Origin: Pseudomonas nitroreducens TX1 | Lineage (GTDB): Bacteria; Pseudomonadota; Gammaproteobacteria; Pseudomonadales; Pseudomonadaceae | DNA length: 64,000 nt | Assembly: GCF_000313755.1 (NCBI RefSeq) | Contig: NZ_AMZB01000118.1 | Location: 1 to 64,000, forward strand | Reading direction: 5' to 3' | Part shown: one piece after another, positions 51,990 to 59,821 of the stretch | Layout: the number at the start of each line of letters is the position of its first letter | Position numbering within the stretch: position 1 is the first letter of the stretch | The notes under the pieces: model-generated | Seen by the model: only the letters and a program-made list of their open reading frames with translations | Told to the model about the DNA's origin: nothing | Databases searched by the model: none | Program-made: the position numbers and the translations under genes

Positions 51990-52540
51990 TGGAACGCCAG
52001 AAAATGCCCCGACTACGACGGCGGACTCGCAAGTCCTTCATCGCCCCCCGTTGAGCGTCCCCCCTCCTAACACCTGCCCCCCATGAATATCCCAAAACGT
52101 CTATGACTCACGCCGAATGTCGTTCGCAATTACTCAATAACCGACACCCCGAAATCTGACACGTTAAAACATGGATCTAATTTTAACTGGACAAATAGAG
52201 TCAGATTATTCCTCGGAACACTCCTACTCAATTAGGAAAACTTTCACCATTGCCAATATAACTTAAAAAAAAGATCATCTCCGCCAATGCATCACCCCAG
52301 TAAATTCGAGCTAAATATTGAGTCCCACTCACCTTCTAGCCACCTGAAACACTATCCATCCCCCACCAATTCAACCCATGCGATACCAACAAACGAAATA
52401 GCGAAAATTGCGCTAACGAGTGGCTGCGTCAAATTCATTCAAAGGTTCCGCGAAACTCATCAGAGCACTGCGGAGCGCAACCGAGCAACACCGCAACACC
52501 CCGATCCAATCGTCATCACTGAAACATCCAGGAAACAGAA
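51990..52540. other. AT-rich leader of the peptide-export island
   Basis: About 550 bp, markedly AT-rich between 52080 and 52440 (for example ATATAACTTAAAAAAAAG near 52260), unlike the surrounding chromosome. It must hold the promoter of the peptide gene at 52541, but I could not identify convincing -35/-10 boxes. A frame from 52287 to 52544 overlaps the peptide start by ATGA but has no ribosome-binding site or coding character. Confidence 0.6.
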
Positions 52541-52684
52541 ATGAAAAAGGTAAATCGCGAAGAACTGATCCGCTCCGAACTGGCTGGCGGCTGCTGCAAG
52601 TCGAAGAAGAAGCCGGCTCCCTGCCCGGCCCCGGTTCCGCCGGCTGGCGGCGGTGACGGCGGTGGCACCAACATCGCTCCGTAA
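52541..52684 (+). CDS. Double-glycine peptide precursor (bacteriocin/RiPP-like)
   Basis: 47 residues. The first 17, MKKVNREELIRSELAGG, form a leader of the double-glycine type: charged, amphipathic, Leu at -4, Gly-Gly at -2/-1 (the usual hydrophobic residues at -7 and -12 are shifted). The 30-residue core starts Cys-Cys, has a KSKKK basic patch, a PAPCPAPVPP stretch with a third Cys, a GGGDGGG run and ends TNIAP. AGGAAACAG precedes the ATG. A C39-peptidase exporter encoded downstream should cut after GG. The core composition does not match microcins I know. Function could be antibacterial, signalling or metal-related; immunity is not evident. Confidence 0.85.
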   Translation: MKKVNREELIRSELAGGCCKSKKKPAPCPAPVPPAGGGDGGGTNIAP

Positions 52685-52692
52685 GCTGGTAG

Positions 52693-52756
52693 ATCACCGA
52701 CGCACATGGGTCGAAATTCGCTCATCGCGATAAAATTTCGATACCTGCGTCGGTGA
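52693..52756 (+). promoter_or_regulatory. Large nested stem-loop after the peptide gene
   Basis: Outer arms ATCACCGACGCA (52693-52704) and TGCGTCGGTGAT (52745-52756) pair perfectly; inner arms TCGAAATT (52711-52718) and AATTTCGA (52734-52741) pair too. It starts 8 bases after the stop and has no T-tract, so it may stabilise the precursor mRNA or process the transcript. Confidence 0.7.
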
Positions 52757-52773
52757 TATCCACTGGGAACAGG

Positions 52774-52805
52774 GCGCTGCCCAATATATAACCGGGCAGC
52801 GCTTT
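52774..52805 (+). terminator. Terminator-like hairpin between peptide and exporter genes
   Basis: GCGCTGCCC / GGGCAGCGC with an 11-base AT-rich loop and following TTTCAATTT. An imperfect terminator would make precursor mRNA more abundant than exporter mRNA. Confidence 0.65.
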
Positions 52806-52885
52806 CAATTTCATCATTCAAAACTCGAGCAACGGCGGCGTTACTCAAATCCTCATAAATTCGCCGTACTCAGCAAGGTCGAACA

Positions 52886-54094
52886 TTGAGTATCCAAGCA
52901 GAAAAGCTGCCACGCTTTTCCGATGTACCGTGGCGCTGGATTGCCTATTTCACCTCTGCCGCAGTGGGCCTGGGTATCTCCTTCGCATTTATCCAGGAGA
53001 TTGAACTCAAGCGCGATGTGCCCTGTGAAATCATTTCGCCCTCTGAGGTCAAGGTCAAAGGCCTGACTGGCATGGTCACTGCAGCCCTCGTTCACGCTGG
53101 CGAGCAGGTTCAACAAGGGCAGCCGCTCTTCCAACTCGCCCGTGACTTCAGTCTATCCAGTGATGGTACACCGCGCCCCGCGTTCGACGAGAAACTGCGC
53201 GACGATCAGATTGCAACGGCTCAAGCTCAACATGAAGGTCGGATTGCCGGCCTTCTCGCCCGCCTTACAGCCAGTGAGCTCAACGGCGCCGCCCGTGAGC
53301 GCGAACTTGCCGCGCTTGGACAGCAGCAAGCGCGTGCCCGACAGATCGCTGCCGACGCTCAGCGAACGCTGCAGCGCGTCCAGGGCATGGCCACATACCT
53401 GACCGCAGATCGAATCGAACAGGCGCGTCTCCAGGCCAACCAGAGCGCAGCCGAAATCGCCCAAGGGGACGTTCGACGCCAATCCCTGCTGGGCGAGATC
53501 GAAACCATCCGAGGAACCCAACAGGAATTGAAGGTGCAACAGCGTGAGCTGGACGCGCAACTCGCACGCGAACTGCAAGATATCAATCTGCGTTACGAAG
53601 CGGCCCGCCAGAACTCCACCATCTTCGCACCGCATACGGGGCTGGTGACATTCTCCAGCCTCGTCCCTGGCCATACATTGGAGGCTGAAGACGTCGCCCT
53701 AGTCATCGACACCGAAGCGGGCAACCCTTTGGTCGCCGCGCTGACAATTCCCTCGCGCCAGCGAGGCTTCATCAAGCCGGGGCAATCCGTCCGCCTCAAG
53801 CTGGACGCCTTTCCCTACGCTCGCTTCGGTGCCGTCCAGGCCCGTATCGACACGATCTCGGATACGGCCATGAACAAGACCGAGGGCGCCACTGGCCCGA
53901 CCGCCACTGCCGGCAAGACCACGGAAATCAACAACTACATGGCCTGGGCAAGCCTTTCCAGCACAACCTTCGGTCCGGTGCACGAGCCACTGCGTATCCT
54001 TCCCGGCATGCGCGGCACCGCCAGCGTGATCATCGAGCGCAGGACCATCGCTGAATGGGTGCTGGAACCCCTCTTCCAGATGATCCGGGGTTGA
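52886..54094 (+). CDS. HlyD-type membrane fusion protein of a type I exporter
   Basis: 402 residues from TTG 52886 (AAGG 8 bases upstream; no ATG nearby). One membrane helix (WIAYFTSAAVGLGISFAFI, about 18-37), a lipoyl half (VKVKGLTGMVTAALVHAGEQVQQGQPLFQL), a long coiled-coil hairpin (about 95-235), then the second lipoyl half (STIFAPHTGLVTFSSLVPGHTL) and a beta-barrel. It resembles adaptors of peptide exporters such as CvaA. It would bridge the C39 ABC transporter in the inner membrane and the TolC-like channel. Its stop overlaps the start region of the transporter gene. Confidence 0.88.
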   Translation: MSIQAEKLPRFSDVPWRWIAYFTSAAVGLGISFAFIQEIELKRDVPCEIISPSEVKVKGLTGMVTAALVHAGEQVQQGQPLFQLARDFSLSSDGTPRPAFDEKLRDDQIATAQAQHEGRIAGLLARLTASELNGAARERELAALGQQQARARQIAADAQRTLQRVQGMATYLTADRIEQARLQANQSAAEIAQGDVRRQSLLGEIETIRGTQQELKVQQRELDAQLARELQDINLRYEAARQNSTIFAPHTGLVTFSSLVPGHTLEAEDVALVIDTEAGNPLVAALTIPSRQRGFIKPGQSVRLKLDAFPYARFGAVQARIDTISDTAMNKTEGATGPTATAGKTTEINNYMAWASLSSTTFGPVHEPLRILPGMRGTASVIIERRTIAEWVLEPLFQMIRG

Positions 54095-54096
54095 TC

Positions 54097-56196
54097 GTGC
54101 GGGTTATCTACCAGAACGAAGTCGCCGACTGCGGCTATGCCTGCCTTGCCATGGTCCTGACCCACCTGGGTCGGGCGACTGAGGTACGTGAAATAACTAC
54201 GCACCGACCGCTGTCCTCCCACGGCCTGACGCTGATGGACCTGTACGACGTGGCTACCGATTTCGGTCTCGCCGTCCAGGCATTCCAGTTCGACGCCAGC
54301 GACCTAGCCAACATCAAACCGGGCTCGATCCTGCATTTCGGCGGAGCCCACTTCGTGGTCTTCGAGAAATGCCGGCGTGGCCATGTGGTCGTCATCGACC
54401 CTGCTTCTGGACGTCGGCGCATGGGGCTGGAAATGTTCCTGGCCAATGTCTCAGGCTACCTGCTCGAGTGCACGCCAACGCCGGAACTGCCTCGAATCCG
54501 TCATCGTTCAAAGGTACCCGGCGCGCTTGCCCAGGTACGGGCGCTGAATCCCCAGTTGCGCAGCCAGATCGCCAAGCTGATGTTCATCGCCGTCGGCAGT
54601 CAGTTCGCCATCCTGGCCATGCCCTACTTCGGTAATCTGGTTCTCGACCATGTCGTCACCAGCGATAACCGAAACCTGCTGCATATCCTGGCGGCCACGT
54701 TCGCAAGCATCTTCGCCATCGGCGCCTTCGGCCGCTTCGTCCAGAGCTACCTGACTGCCCTGGCCAATGCCCTGGTCAGTGTGAACGTGACCCAGGGCCT
54801 GGTCGGGCAGCTGTTGCGCAACTCCATCGCCTACTTCGAGAAGCGCAACGTCGGCGACCTCTTCGCCCGCCTGAAATCCCAGGACGAAATCAACGAGTAC
54901 ACGGTGCGAACAAGCATCACGCTGCGCATCGACATCACCGTGGCCGTGCTGGCGATTGCACTGATGCTGATGCAAAGCGCGCTGCTGGCCTGCATCGCAC
55001 TCGCCATCTTCGTCCTGTACCTGGGGACTGCGTTCGCGCTGTACGTTCCGATGCGCGACGCCCACATGCTGGTACTGGAACGCTCGGCCCAGTGCGACGA
55101 CACGCTGATCGAAACGATTCGCGGCGCCTCGTTGATCAAATTGGCCTGCGGCGAAACACGTCGCACGGCGATTTTCATGTCGAAGTTCCGTGCCAACGCC
55201 GCGGCGACGCTACATAGCGCCAAGTTGACGGCGGGCCGCGACGCCGTTCTGAAACTGGTCGAATACGCTGACGTCATCGTCATTACGTGGATGGCCGCTG
55301 GACTGATGCTCGACGGCAAGATTTCCGTCGGTGTCTTCTATTCCTTCATGATCTACAAATCCCTGGCCTCCGAACGTATGGCCCAGGCCATCAACGCACT
55401 TTTCGGTCGCTTCATGCTGACGGTGCCGGTACAGCGCGTAGCGGACATCGTGGAGCAGGAGCCGGAACGCTACACGTTACCCGCGCAGATCGGCAGAACC
55501 GCTGAATTGCAACGTTTCGCCTCGATCCAGGTACGCGATCTGAGCTTCAGCTACGGCATTTCCGACCGCAACGTCCTGTCAGGCATATCACTGGATATCC
55601 GGCGGGGCGACAAGATCGTCATCGTCGGGCCATCGGGTGTCGGCAAGTCGACGCTCTTCAAGCTTCTGTGTGCCGCGGAGCCCGTACAAGACGGCGAGAT
55701 TCGGCTGAACGGCGTGAGCTACACGAACCTCGCGGTCGACGAAGTCCGGAAGCACATGACTCAGATGCGCCAGGGTGACCTGATTCTCAACGGCAGCATC
55801 GCCGATAACATCTCGCTGTTCAGTGCCAATCCCGACCACCGCCGCATTAACCAATTGCTCGCGGATGTCGGTCTGCTGAACGACGTCATGCAACTGCCCA
55901 TGCGCACCCAGACCGTTATCAGCGACTCCATCGCAAATATCTCCGCGGGCCAGCGCCAGCGGCTACTGCTGGCCCGCGCGCTGTATCAGGAGGCCGAGAT
56001 CCTGCTGCTCGACGAGCCCACCTCCAATCTCGACCCGATATCCGTTGCCGGCATTGCCAGCCTCCTCCAGCAACTGGATCGCACGCTCATCGTCATCACC
56101 CATGACCACTCCCTCGCCTCTCGCTTCGAGCGCAGCTACCAGTTGATCGATGGCGCACTCATACAGCGCACCAACCAGATAGGCGCGTCCGAATGA
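54097..56196 (+). CDS. C39-peptidase-containing ABC transporter (PCAT)
   Basis: 699 residues from GTG 54097 with GGGG 6 bases before; TTG 54091, which overlaps the adaptor stop, is an alternative. N-terminal C39 peptidase (about 1-130): QNEVADCGYACLAMVL with the catalytic Cys, AHFVVFEK with the His and IDPASG with the Asp, all present, so leader cleavage is expected. Six-helix membrane domain (about 160-440), then an ATPase with Walker A GPSGVGKST, signature ISAGQ (normally LSGGQ), Walker B ILLLDEPTSNLD and THDHS switch His. It should process and export the 47-residue peptide. Overlaps the channel gene by ATGA. Confidence 0.93.
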   Translation: MRVIYQNEVADCGYACLAMVLTHLGRATEVREITTHRPLSSHGLTLMDLYDVATDFGLAVQAFQFDASDLANIKPGSILHFGGAHFVVFEKCRRGHVVVIDPASGRRRMGLEMFLANVSGYLLECTPTPELPRIRHRSKVPGALAQVRALNPQLRSQIAKLMFIAVGSQFAILAMPYFGNLVLDHVVTSDNRNLLHILAATFASIFAIGAFGRFVQSYLTALANALVSVNVTQGLVGQLLRNSIAYFEKRNVGDLFARLKSQDEINEYTVRTSITLRIDITVAVLAIALMLMQSALLACIALAIFVLYLGTAFALYVPMRDAHMLVLERSAQCDDTLIETIRGASLIKLACGETRRTAIFMSKFRANAAATLHSAKLTAGRDAVLKLVEYADVIVITWMAAGLMLDGKISVGVFYSFMIYKSLASERMAQAINALFGRFMLTVPVQRVADIVEQEPERYTLPAQIGRTAELQRFASIQVRDLSFSYGISDRNVLSGISLDIRRGDKIVIVGPSGVGKSTLFKLLCAAEPVQDGEIRLNGVSYTNLAVDEVRKHMTQMRQGDLILNGSIADNISLFSANPDHRRINQLLADVGLLNDVMQLPMRTQTVISDSIANISAGQRQRLLLARALYQEAEILLLDEPTSNLDPISVAGIASLLQQLDRTLIVITHDHSLASRFERSYQLIDGALIQRTNQIGASE

Positions 56197-57512
56197 GTAT
56201 CGGAAAGGCCCCGATTCTTCTGGCCATGAGCCTTGCACTTACCTCCCAGGCTGCCTGGTCCGGAGAGCTGTTGTCAGTCGTCAACGACGCCCTGAGCCAC
56301 GACGCCGAACTATCAGCGGCGAATGCCGAAATAGCGGTTGGCCGCGAAGAGATTCCCATTGCGAGGTCAGCTCTTCTGCCTAGGCTCGACGGCGGCTGGG
56401 GACGCACCTACAACCAGATCAAGACAGATAACCAGCCTACAGCCAAGTACTGGCAGAACGGCTGGATGGTGACGCTGAATCAACCCGTGTTCGATTGGCA
56501 ACTCTGGGTGGAGCTGCGCCAGGCGAGCATCGCCAGTGCCAAGGCGGAACTTGAATATGCCAGTGCCTGGCAGGATCTGGTCCTGCGCTCCGCGAATGCC
56601 TACCTCGACCTGCTGGCCGCTTCGCAGGAGCTGTCTCGTGCCACCGACTACCTGCGCGCTGTCACCGATCAGCATGCGCTGACCCAGCGCCTGCAGGCAG
56701 GCGGTGAAGCGACGGTCATCGATGTACAGGAAGCCTTGTCGCGCCTGAGCGAGGCACAACTGCGACAGCAGGAAGCCTCGCGCGAACTGGACTCTCGCCG
56801 CCGCATCCTCGAAACCTTGACCGGGCGTGACATCCCGATACCCAACCCGTCTCACATGGAACGCACCCGCCCTTGGCTGAAGTCCAAAAGCGTCCAGCAA
56901 TGGGTTCGCCAGGCCGAAACGCACAGTTACCCAGTGCAGTTGGGGCAACTGGAGGTCCGCAATGCCGGTGAAGATGCCGCCAAGGCACGCGCCCAGCGCT
57001 ACCCCGTCGTGAGTCTCAGCGCCAGTCACGCCCCCTCCGGCTCCGCCTCGGGCTACTCCGATCCGACCACCACCAATAGCGCCATGCTGACCATATCGGC
57101 GCCGCTGTTTGCCGGCGGCGGCAACCGGGCCCGCATTCGTCAGGCCCTGGCCGGCGAGGAAAAAGCCCAGAGCACTCTGCTGGCAGCACAACGAAAGTCC
57201 GCCGCCAACACCCGCGAATGGTTCCAACGTCTCGATTGGGCCCAGGAAAGAAGCCAGGCGCTACAGGAAGTCGTTCGCCTCAACGAGGAATCGCTGAAGG
57301 CGACCCGCATGGGTTACAAGGCGGGTAGCCGCTCCAACCTGGATGTACTCCGCGCCCAAGAGTCGCTGTTCACCAGCCGAGGCGAGCAGGCGAAGTCGCA
57401 ATATGAAGTGCTGTCGGCCTTCCTGGCGCTCAAGGCTGAAGTTGCGTCGCTCAGCCTGGGCGATATTCAGCTTCTCGACGCATGGCTCGCCTCAGATGCG
57501 AACGCGCACTAA
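56193..57512 (+). CDS. TolC-family outer membrane channel
   Basis: 439 residues with signal peptide (PILLAMSLALTSQAAWSG). Two repeated TolC/OEP domains with long helices: LLSVVNDALSHDAELSAANAEIAV and LQEVVRLNEESLKATRMGYKAGSRSNLDVLRAQESLF, the latter being the clear second OEP signature. Completes a dedicated three-part exporter rather than borrowing the chromosomal TolC. ATG overlaps the transporter stop. Confidence 0.9.
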   Translation: MSIGKAPILLAMSLALTSQAAWSGELLSVVNDALSHDAELSAANAEIAVGREEIPIARSALLPRLDGGWGRTYNQIKTDNQPTAKYWQNGWMVTLNQPVFDWQLWVELRQASIASAKAELEYASAWQDLVLRSANAYLDLLAASQELSRATDYLRAVTDQHALTQRLQAGGEATVIDVQEALSRLSEAQLRQQEASRELDSRRRILETLTGRDIPIPNPSHMERTRPWLKSKSVQQWVRQAETHSYPVQLGQLEVRNAGEDAAKARAQRYPVVSLSASHAPSGSASGYSDPTTTNSAMLTISAPLFAGGGNRARIRQALAGEEKAQSTLLAAQRKSAANTREWFQRLDWAQERSQALQEVVRLNEESLKATRMGYKAGSRSNLDVLRAQESLFTSRGEQAKSQYEVLSAFLALKAEVASLSLGDIQLLDAWLASDANAH

Positions 57513-58413
57513 CGTGACGGGGCTGCGCTGGCGCGACCACTGCCTGCTGAGAATGTCGCTCCCGTGGATTGAACGAGTCGGCCTGATTTTGTGGGGAGTC
57601 CGGAGCATATTCAGCACAGGCAAGCGCTGGAAGGGTAGATTGCGCTACGAGTGGGGCAGCGACAGCGAATCGCTTGGCCGAGCTGACGCCTGGCGCACCA
57701 TGGCGAGCGAAGAGATCGAGAACCTGATCGATCGACGCATGCATCTGGGAAGGCTCTATGGCATTGGCAACTACTGGCCGCAACTCGAGTCGGCCGCGCA
57801 CGAGCTTGCCGCCATCATCTCCGAGCTTCACCGCCAGTTTCCTGCTCGGCCGGTCATTGTTTCGCCGTTTCACTATGTATCCGAGTACGCCAATATCTAC
57901 GTCGTCGATGCGCTGCGCGCCACGCTGAAGCTGAAGGAAATTGCCGTCGTTTCCGGTAGCCCCCGAGAGGCTTACGGAAGTCGAGAAGACATCCTGATTC
58001 CGGGTTTGCGCATACTGCACACCCTCGATAAGGACAATCGCTCGGCCCTGGGGTTGAGGTTGATGCGATCTCTGAAGCAGGACGGCGTGGCAGTCCTGTT
58101 CAGCGACGTCCCGCCCTTCATGATGCAGCGCTACCCCATGGATACTGTCGAAGTATCGCTACTCGGACGACCTGCGCGCCTGCACCGCGGAGTGTTCAGT
58201 ATTGGCAGCCATGCCGACGCCGTGCTTCTGTGCTTCCACCTCACTTTTGGGAAAGGTCGCTTCGGCCACCGGATTTTCCCTGCCATCGAACTACGCCGGC
58301 ACGACGCCCCACAGCAGGTCGCCAATTTCATCGAGCAGGCATACCAGAATGCCTACCCGAACTGGATTCTCGCCGACCACCCATCTCGCTATGGCTTTGC
58401 TCCGGCCAAGTAA
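57496..58413 (+). CDS. LpxL/HtrB-like acyltransferase in the peptide-export operon
   Basis: 305 residues from ATG 57496; GTG 57514 and ATG 57553 are alternatives without better sites. The fold pattern is of LpxL-type lysophospholipid acyltransferases: an N-terminal hydrophobic patch (IERVGLILWGVRSIF), VIVSPFHYVSEYANIY at the catalytic position, GVAVLFSDVPP, then a GRPARLHRGVFSIGSHADAVLL segment. The catalytic motif reads H-x3-E (HYVSE) instead of H-x4-D/E, so activity may differ or be lost. It overlaps the channel gene and so belongs to the operon. It might acylate the peptide or alter the producer envelope; both are inference. Confidence 0.7.
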   Translation: MRTRTNVTGLRWRDHCLLRMSLPWIERVGLILWGVRSIFSTGKRWKGRLRYEWGSDSESLGRADAWRTMASEEIENLIDRRMHLGRLYGIGNYWPQLESAAHELAAIISELHRQFPARPVIVSPFHYVSEYANIYVVDALRATLKLKEIAVVSGSPREAYGSREDILIPGLRILHTLDKDNRSALGLRLMRSLKQDGVAVLFSDVPPFMMQRYPMDTVEVSLLGRPARLHRGVFSIGSHADAVLLCFHLTFGKGRFGHRIFPAIELRRHDAPQQVANFIEQAYQNAYPNWILADHPSRYGFAPAK

Positions 58414-58708: not shown

Positions 58709-59821
58709 ATGGCAATAAACAGCACCAGAAAACGCACATTATCCCGGTCCGTCCAGGCAGTTGCTTTAGGCAACTTGTTTTTAGCGATGGGCGGACTCTG
58801 GAGCGCTGATTCCCATGCAGCAGCGACATGCACTTTCAATGGCGCGGCATCTGAGAGTTTTAGTTTTCCGGGCCCGATCTCAGTTCCTCGCGACAATGCC
58901 ACACCCGTTCCGCTCACTAACTGGGCAATTGGGCAGGCTGTAACAAACATCTACTCCTGCAACATCAATAACGACACCGAAGTGGGTATCGGCATCAAAT
59001 TTCCCACTCTAGAGCAGGCCGGAACATACTCAGAAGGTGGAATCACCTATAAAGTCTTCAAGACAGGCCTGGATGGCGTAGGAATCATTTATGGGTTCCG
59101 TATTTATTCAGGAGGCCAGTATTGCGAAAGGAATGGAGGCGCCAACGGCTGGAACACATATGCCACTGGCTCAGGCACAGTTCCTTATAGCAACCGGTTC
59201 TGCCAGAGCATCGAGTCCAATAGTTATAACTTTGGAGCTCAACTACAGTTCCGTTTGATCAAAACGGGAAAGATCGCCGCCGGTTCTACTCCTCCCCTGA
59301 CACTTACCTTTACAGCACTGGACACAGATACTGTTTTTTCCACCGCCATCGGAAGCAAGACCTACGTCATCAACCCCGTGAATCTCCAGACTCTGGCCTG
59401 CACTGCCGAAGGAGGAGACGTCATTCTGGACGACGTCCACAAGGGCGCCTTCGCCTCGGCTACCACCCTCAAGACGAAACCTTTCCAGTTCACCCTGCGA
59501 AACTGCCCAGCCGGGATGAATACCATCCAGTATCAATTGGATCCTATCGGCACCATCATCAGCGCCGCGAACGGCACCTTCCAGAACGCCACCGGGGATG
59601 AAATGGCCAAAGGCGTCGGGCTGCGCATCACTGATGAAACCAACACCTCGCCCATCCGCTTCGGCGACTCCAGCTATGTGGTGCAGAACTACGATCCGAA
59701 CGCAGAAAACCAGACACTGCCCATCAAGATGAACGTCTCCTACTTCCGCACCGGCACGGCCGAGCAAGTTACCGGCGGACTGGTCAGAGGCGTTGCGCAA
59801 CTGACGCTCTTCTATCTCTGA
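58709..59821 (+). CDS. Orphan fimbrial-type adhesin/pilin
   Basis: 370 residues with a Sec signal (VQAVALGNLFLAMGGLWSADSHAA). AGGAG lies 8 bases before the ATG. Two domains: an N-terminal receptor-like domain (to about 210) with two Cys pairs, and a C-terminal fimbrial (type 1 pilin-like) domain starting LQTLACTAEGGDVILDDV and ending with alternate hydrophobics GVAQLTLFYL, the donor-strand pattern of chaperone-usher pilins. The layout is that of a tip adhesin. No chaperone or usher is nearby. The 295-bp gap before it has no gene, so it may be a separate unit from the exporter operon. Confidence 0.75.
   Translation: MAINSTRKRTLSRSVQAVALGNLFLAMGGLWSADSHAAATCTFNGAASESFSFPGPISVPRDNATPVPLTNWAIGQAVTNIYSCNINNDTEVGIGIKFPTLEQAGTYSEGGITYKVFKTGLDGVGIIYGFRIYSGGQYCERNGGANGWNTYATGSGTVPYSNRFCQSIESNSYNFGAQLQFRLIKTGKIAAGSTPPLTLTFTALDTDTVFSTAIGSKTYVINPVNLQTLACTAEGGDVILDDVHKGAFASATTLKTKPFQFTLRNCPAGMNTIQYQLDPIGTIISAANGTFQNATGDEMAKGVGLRITDETNTSPIRFGDSSYVVQNYDPNAENQTLPIKMNVSYFRTGTAEQVTGGLVRGVAQLTLFYL

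Follow-up and report, generated by a model that had tools for sequence, protein, structure and literature searches.

Among described systems, those closest to the locus discussed here are the class II microcins, exemplified by MccV (CvaC/CvaB/CvaA/TolC), for which the criteria are a double-glycine leader of 15-18 residues, a C39-peptidase transporter, a fusion protein, TolC and an immunity protein, i.e. a membrane protein of 51-216 residues (as listed in PMC10233263). The locus lies in the window, by which we mean the whole 64,000-nucleotide stretch that was analysed (Pseudomonas nitroreducens TX1, assembly GCF_000313755.1, contig NZ_AMZB01000118.1, positions 1 to 64,000), and encodes in a row a 47-residue precursor peptide, an HlyD-type adaptor, a C39 ATP-binding cassette (ABC) transporter, a TolC-family channel, an acyltransferase and a fimbrial adhesin. 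It shares with the microcin systems the short double-glycine leader, the C39 transporter, the adaptor and TolC, and the spacing of its C39 triad, 73 and 16 residues, is that of CvaB (Cys32-His105-Asp121, as given in PMC10233263). It differs from them in its own TolC gene, its dedicated acyltransferase, its low-complexity cores mostly starting with Cys-Cys-Lys, the fact that no immunity gene was found, and its occurrence in Pseudomonas, Burkholderiales and Rhodanobacteraceae. The reading that we prefer, and to which we give slightly better than even chances, is that this locus produces a small peptide that is probably acylated and is exported to play a role at the surface or in attachment.

The acyltransferase finds its nearest parallel in VexE of the Vi antigen system, likewise an LPLAT fold closest to PatA and LpxM in which Tyr replaces the acidic residue of the H(X)4D/E motif, and which is active despite this change; its His has a distant Asp (D532) as partner (as described in PMC9597891), a part that D203 may play in the enzyme discussed here. 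In PatA too, the catalytic His has a distant partner, E200 (according to PMC4792965). VexE, however, is described as acylating UDP-GlcNAc and as having a tetratricopeptide repeat domain (PMC9597891), whereas the enzyme discussed here has 305 residues, lacks such a domain and is tied to a peptide exporter. Lipid-bearing ribosomally synthesized and post-translationally modified peptides (RiPPs), namely lipolanthines, goadvionins, selidamides and nostolysamides, also start from a ribosomal precursor and carry the acyl group on the N-terminus or a side chain, as is proposed here; they are described as lanthipeptides modified by GNAT enzymes, whereas the present cassette has an LPLAT-type enzyme and no lanthionine synthetase (PMC13060382). 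In DAG-RiPPs, the mature peptide has an N-terminal Cys and a lipid attached (again only proposed here), and these are reported to depend on Lgt, LspA and Lnt rather than on a double-glycine leader and a C39 exporter (PMC12636315). The first-pass annotation had not recognized the five-gene combination of precursor, adaptor, transporter, channel and LpxL-like enzyme as known, and indeed no description of the system was found in the open-licence PubMed Central literature. HlyC-activated RTX toxins offer a further likeness, since their acyltransferase is encoded with a type I secretion system and acts before export, although HlyC has another fold and its substrates are large proteins with an uncleaved C-terminal signal. 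The main texts of PMC11494933 and PMC13174018 contain no occurrence of the word Burkholderia.

A precursor peptide and its export cassette

The features of the cassette are the following, all on the forward (+) strand:

52541..52684, +, precursor peptide of 47 residues (open reading frame with a ribosome-binding-like AGGA upstream, supported by orthologues, dN/dS and a family of 92)
52771..52805, +, hairpin between precursor and hlyD, with 12 consecutive pairs of which two are G-U (fold z -4.1)
52886..54094, +, HlyD-type periplasmic adaptor with a TTG start (PF13437, HlyD_3, 53.8 bits; TIGR01843 78 bits, below cut-off)
54097..56196, +, C39-peptidase ABC transporter with a GTG start (PF03412 94.9 bits, PF00005, PF00664)
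56193..57512, +, TolC-family outer-membrane channel (TIGR01844 253.7 bits, over the cut-off of 225.15; PF02321)
57496..58413, +, LPLAT/LpxL-like acyltransferase of 305 residues (weak profile match and predicted structure; key residues H125, Y130 and D203)
58709..59821, +, two-domain fimbrial tip adhesin (PF00419 47.4 bits; AlphaFold2 model with pLDDT 81.5; CupB6 tip adhesin in the PDB)

The interval 52541..58413 had been annotated as a self-contained peptide secretion locus of five genes. Its five frames are open at these coordinates and the domain matches confirm their order, the C39, ABC, TolC and HlyD_3 domains all scoring above curated cut-offs, while the hairpin and the adhesin gene had been missed.

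The precursor consists of a 17-residue leader ending in GG, MKKVNREELIRSELAGG, and a 30-residue core with three Cys, CCKSKKKPAPCPAPVPPAGGGDGGGTNIAP, as had been claimed. An orthologous peptide precedes the same genes in two other genomes of the genus, G003 and G015 (loci L009 and L010), where leader and core read MKKVDREELTKSELAGG-CCKAKKKPAPCPAPVPPSGGNTGGTNVVR and MKKVERDALVKSELAGG-CCKSKNQPAPAPTPCPPSGGGSGGTTRAPATT. The three pairwise comparisons give dN/dS values of 0.17, 0.39 and 0.29, with the largest share of the differences at third codon positions. Judged by these comparisons, the precursor is translated and under selection, and a chance open reading frame is ruled out by the orthologues, the dN/dS values and the family of related precursors described below. 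In the genus set of 25 genomes, strong matches to the precursor profile are confined to the same three genomes, those in G006 and G018 (E 0.0065 and 0.0070) being probably due to chance. A Sec lipoprotein, which the end of the leader (LAGG-C) could bring to mind, was not adopted because no hydrophobic signal is seen by eye ahead of it.

Genome comparison indicates that the six-gene cassette is an insert of about 8 kb between metH and a yggL-like gene, in a genome of 6.7 Mb. Present in all 25 genomes (own included), metH can be paired with a close yggL homologue in 24, G006 having only a weak one. A distance of 20 to 569 bp separates the two genes in 21 of these pairs, against 8.0 to 8.7 kb in the remaining three (own, G003 and G015), where the gap holds the whole cassette including the adhesin; these are also the only three of the 25 genomes with the acyltransferase gene. 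Of the two core-gene flanks named by the first-pass annotation, metH is certain and the other is better called a YggL-like protein, its 61.5 bits falling below the curated cut-off of 115. The AT-rich leader that it described is real, with a GC content of 0.40 at 52125-52374 against about 0.65 further upstream. Four more C39-domain matches, two of them weak, occur elsewhere in the genome (L002-L005).

A family of precursors with conserved leaders and variable cores

A C39-domain profile scan of genome contigs yielded 70 loci, 64 in Burkholderia, Paraburkholderia or Caballeronia, four in Herbaspirillum (three genomes) and one each in Rhodanobacter and Dyella. Adding the window, G003, G015 and a Caballeronia megaplasmid brings the set to 74. 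A leader profile found 92 precursors at 71 of the 74 loci (window included), mainly in Paraburkholderia, Caballeronia and Burkholderia, a count that leaves out hits below 9 bits and two above it (L054 and L075) with an unfit leader shape; none was counted at L083, L084 and L086. The precursor proposed in the window is thus one of many. The leader is conserved, being 17 residues long in 86 of the 92 precursors and having GG at positions 16-17 in 85. The cores are variable and of low complexity, and mostly begin with Cys-Cys-Lys (Cys at +1 in 69/92, Cys at +2 in 56/92, Lys at +3 in 80/92). One or more precursors with Cys at +1 are encoded at 67 of the 71 loci, and one with Lys at +3 at 65. Beyond this start, which in some loci reads CCKCCC, they are made mostly of Ser, Thr, Pro, Ala, Gly and Val; 73 of the 92 contain any Cys, and many have one or none. 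Two to four precursors are encoded at 14 loci, mostly one or two starting with Cys together with Ser/Thr-rich paralogues. Ser/Thr-rich cores with an alternating, beta-strand-like stretch (e.g. TTVVIYIQGK, NTVNITIGS) are seen at L061, L043, L056, L014, L050, L052 and L085, each of which has two to four precursors.

Searches of NCBIfam, Pfam and PHROGs with 91 of the 92 precursors yielded nothing beyond weak matches to known families: four NCBIfam families, including listeriolysin S (five members, best E 0.0016) and SCIFF (one, E 0.0006), SCIFF again in Pfam (one precursor, E 0.0045) and one PHROGs match (one precursor, E 0.0069). Identity with any of these was rejected, the matches being read as low-complexity Cys/Ser sequence.

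In 23 loci the upstream region has a LysR/PBP-like regulator gene along with formate-dehydrogenase-like genes (e.g. L023:5001-6080 in Paraburkholderia), probably as a shared chromosomal neighbourhood. At L032, L054, L086 and L155 (the last on a contig equal in length to that of L086), in symbiont genomes, the cassette genes are in pieces, a sign that the system is decaying in host-restricted lineages.

An acyltransferase that accompanies the exporter

The acyltransferase is present at 71 of the 74 loci, though only in pieces at three (L032, L054 and L086). It is absent at L081, L083 and L084, all from Herbaspirillum (two genomes), and no copy was found elsewhere in those genomes. The linkage noticed in the window is seen again in several genera, where the genes may stand in another order. 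Most Burkholderiales loci have acyltransferase-HlyD-C39-TolC; the window, L075, G003, G015 and two Burkholderia loci have HlyD-C39-TolC-acyltransferase, and Rhodanobacter and Dyella have HlyD-C39-acyltransferase. To lessen the bias of a transporter-first survey, 299 genomes of one family were searched with an acyltransferase profile, which matched in 38. All 30 of the acyltransferase loci fetched have HlyD, C39 or TolC homologues within 1.5 kb, and seven of them have not a single exact 100-base stretch in common with the first locus set. The gene is split over two matches in G675 and G729, and in G714 it has an internal stop and is matched in pieces. Among 15 chosen genomes searched whole, 13 have the acyltransferase, in a single copy in 12 of them, while Paraburkholderia dinghuensis has two copies and two C39 loci (L042 and L075). 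In a class-level search of 369 genomes at E 1e-8, the own genome was the only one with an acyltransferase match.

Divergent copies of the enzyme (G526, G568 and G682) stand directly before a C39 transporter that is followed by a MacB gene (3/3); a MacA-type adaptor, tested for at the divergent clusters, was found in one, L154. Such retention of the acyltransferase across exporter types is an argument for its serving the peptide. Comparison thus establishes that the locus and the precursor family exist and that the acyltransferase is their partner.

Double-glycine small open reading frames lie beside divergent acyltransferase-C39-MacB clusters at L153:6776-6961 and L154:8656-8841 (minus strand), and the L153 core holds NTTVVNVYV, which resembles Caballeronia cores, while the leaders differ. 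A more distant cluster occurs in E. coli (L088:4400-15543 in CP070400; also L015 and L016), with genes for DsbA, an LpxL-like protein, C39, MacA, MacB, TolC, a ketoacyl synthase, a hypothetical protein, an acyl carrier protein (ACP) and a short-chain dehydrogenase/reductase in a row; megablast found it in 9 of 5,426 complete E. coli genomes, always on a plasmid. No double-glycine precursor was recognized beside these clusters by eye among filtered small open reading frames (L088 and L015). The presence of DsbA and of fatty-acid genes suggests an exported acylated product, for which the ketoacyl synthase, ACP and dehydrogenase/reductase could supply acyl-ACP.

The protein itself most likely starts at ATG 57496, not at 57343, on sequence grounds; the residue numbers used here are counted from its second codon and are thus one lower than those of the complete protein. 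Its only profile match is NCBIfam PRK07920 (E 1.6e-4, 20.9 bits against a cut-off of 209), and the predicted fold has PatA and LpxM as best PDB matches. On its predicted structure, which backs the LpxL-like label given at first pass, the enzyme is a member of the LPLAT/LpxL-type fold (PatA/LpxM). It does not match PF03279 (Lip_A_acyltrans), which only two of 51 alignment members do at E <= 0.1 (best 0.0057), and neither a PDB sequence search nor a search of the genome contigs with the single acyltransferase gave a match. Three Lip_A_acyltrans genes are found elsewhere in the genome.

The H(X)4D/E motif is not present in its usual form: H125 is invariant and position 130 is Tyr in 47 of 50 sequences. 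Both H125 and D203 are found in 50/50 aligned sequences, with counterparts in 7/7 of a wider set. D203 is the putative counterpart of PatA E200, judged by its place among the motifs and by a profile comparison with four LpxL-type proteins that matched weakly (probability 1.8), not by a residue-level superposition, and the His125-Asp203 pair appears to resemble the His-Asp pair of VexE.

Exporter, hairpin and the question of immunity

The C39 triad of the transporter, C12-H85-D101, is invariant in 4/4 aligned sequences, and its start is most likely GTG 54097 because relatives begin MR[VI]IYQNE. The transporter does not reach the level of the NHLM bacteriocin exporter TIGR03796 (309.7 bits against a cut-off of 853.3). 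A role in anti-phage defence was rejected, only generic ATPase matches being obtained with the transporter.

Between precursor and hlyD, the hairpin at 52771-52805 is a probable attenuator or 3' stabilizer. A hairpin is also found in G003 (z -2.2) and in G015 (z -3.1), the latter with a different sequence in which bases are changed on both arms, and in 53 of the 71 loci a hairpin with z < -2 (against 30 mononucleotide shuffles) lies within 150 nt of the last precursor. Since it separates the precursor from the machinery genes, the precursor is probably made in excess.

Of the class II microcin parts, the 17-residue double-glycine leader, the intact C39 triad, the HlyD_3 membrane fusion protein and a type I TolC are all there. 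No gene for a membrane immunity protein of 51-216 residues was found beside the precursor, but one may lie elsewhere in the genome. No forward-strand open reading frame of at least 30 residues lies wholly between precursor and hlyD. An 85-residue frame just upstream (52287-52544) ends on the precursor start codon. Nothing in it resembles a membrane segment, its best 19-residue Kyte-Doolittle mean being 0.84, and it lacks conservation, being closed in G003, short in G015 and without counterpart in tblastn. A classical class II microcin appears less likely for want of such a gene. The first-pass annotation is supported as regards a self-contained peptide secretion locus with a double-glycine precursor and a linked acyltransferase; its 'microcin-like' label, taken to mean a bacteriocin, is not supported, given that no immunity-like gene was found beside the precursor, the low-complexity variable cores and a hairpin suggestive of excess precursor. 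'RiPP-like' is plausible, the modification of the core being a prediction.

The fimbrial adhesin

The gene downstream of the acyltransferase encodes an N-terminal receptor domain followed by a pilin domain, the make-up of a two-domain tip adhesin. The top PDB match of its model is the CupB6 tip adhesin, followed by FimH; the template modelling (TM) score is only about 0.3 for the complete chain, single domains scoring higher. A Csu/SCPU type was ruled out, Pfam giving Fimbrial and, in relatives, MrkD-like domains. The adhesin is kept beside the cassette in G003 and G015. No homologue of the Caballeronia chaperone or usher was found in the window by tblastn, and four usher loci are present elsewhere in the genome. 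A second adhesin-like gene of the own genome (L106:7877-8983, contig C126) is interrupted in the match by an in-frame stop, and no usher homologue lies in the 18 kb that were fetched.

Fimbrial genes lie near 25 of the 74 loci, in separate lineages (22 with adhesin or pilin homologues, three with an usher only), and a tree calculated for 70 transporters implies at least seven changes in this trait. In a quick tree of 42 rows, the window groups with G003, G015 and two Burkholderia loci in a single clade (SH-aLRT 100), which suggests transfer since it spans distant genera; an adhesin homologue is present at all five loci, where the fetched DNA shows no usher. The fimbrial link is best regarded as a lead, not a rule.

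Models for the function of the locus

In the scenario that we favour, a short double-glycine precursor would be encoded first and, with a strong hairpin ahead of the machinery genes, probably be made in excess. A membrane-associated LPLAT enzyme with a VexE-like His125-Asp203 pair would then move an acyl chain from acyl-ACP or acyl-coenzyme A to the core, most likely at its conserved Cys-Cys-Lys start and possibly at Ser/Thr hydroxyls further on. The C39 domain would cut after GG, and the core would leave through the ABC transporter, HlyD and TolC. The product may finally act at the cell surface, perhaps with the co-inserted fimbrial adhesin, contributing to attachment or surface behaviour instead of killing like a classical microcin. 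We infer that the peptide is acylated, where this takes place and that its role is at the surface. A fuller version, which we put forward tentatively and consider to fall short of an even chance, is that of a large, so far undescribed family of lipopeptides of ribosomal origin: an LPLAT enzyme of the LpxL/VexE type would acylate a double-glycine peptide at its Cys-Cys-Lys end, a C39 type I system would export the product to the surface, and there it would act with the fimbrial tip adhesin of the same mobile cassette.

Several points weigh against this scenario. PatA, LpxM and VexE are LPLAT enzymes described as acylating sugars or lipids, not peptides (PMC9597891, PMC4792965). No private ACP gene was recognized in the loci of the family, for which no systematic search was made; an annotated ACP gene is present only in the distant E. 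coli cluster. The extra precursors at the 14 multi-precursor loci are mostly without Cys, which is therefore not required of every substrate, and the loci without acyltransferase, only three, are a sample too small to reveal a dependence of the core motif on the enzyme. Finally, the fimbrial link is not seen in the fetched DNA at 49 of the 74 loci, a weak statement given that the fetched flanks differ in length.

The alternative that survives best, albeit an unlikely one, is that of a class II microcin-like bacteriocin exported unmodified, the LpxL-like enzyme altering lipid A or membrane lipids of the producer for immunity. Four of the five class II microcin parts (criteria as in PMC10233263) are present and the fold relatives of the enzyme acylate lipids, which would fit. 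The lack of an immunity-like gene beside the precursor does not, nor do low-complexity cores of which up to four different ones occur per locus, an enzyme that tracks C39 transporters of two different exporter types, and a genome in which three Lip_A_acyltrans genes already exist.

Less probable still is an unacylated, fimbria-associated surface peptide that binds or caps fimbrial subunits or the adhesin, with the enzyme modifying an envelope lipid for the assembly of fimbriae or exporter. It would account for the adhesin within the same insert in three Pseudomonas genomes and for the adhesin homologues at both Burkholderia loci of the same clade. Several Caballeronia cores moreover end in an alternating strand such as TTVVIYIQGK, of the kind that a pilin groove could take up by analogy with donor-strand exchange. 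The window core, however, has no such strand, strand-like cores also occur where the fetched DNA shows no fimbrial gene (L043, L056, L071 and L072), and most loci (49 of 74) have no fimbrial gene in that DNA.

A Cys/Lys-rich signal or metal-binding peptide with an incidental acyltransferase is very improbable, since for all the Cys-rich starts of some loci, the recurrent LysR/PBP-like regulator gene and the fact that double-glycine peptides can be signals in other bacteria, many cores have a single Cys or none, the whole-genome and acyltransferase-first searches show that the enzyme is not incidental, and no receptor was recognized among the ten neighbour proteins that were annotated.

Outlook

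The family offers 92 natural precursor variants for testing, and the scenario that we favour makes a clear prediction, namely that a short exported peptide should show an acyl mass shift. It also points to a possible tie between peptide export and pilus-tip adhesins. To our knowledge, the LPLAT superfamily is known only from lipids and glycolipids. If the enzyme does acylate the peptide, this would represent a new route to ribosomal lipopeptides, spread over many Burkholderiaceae.

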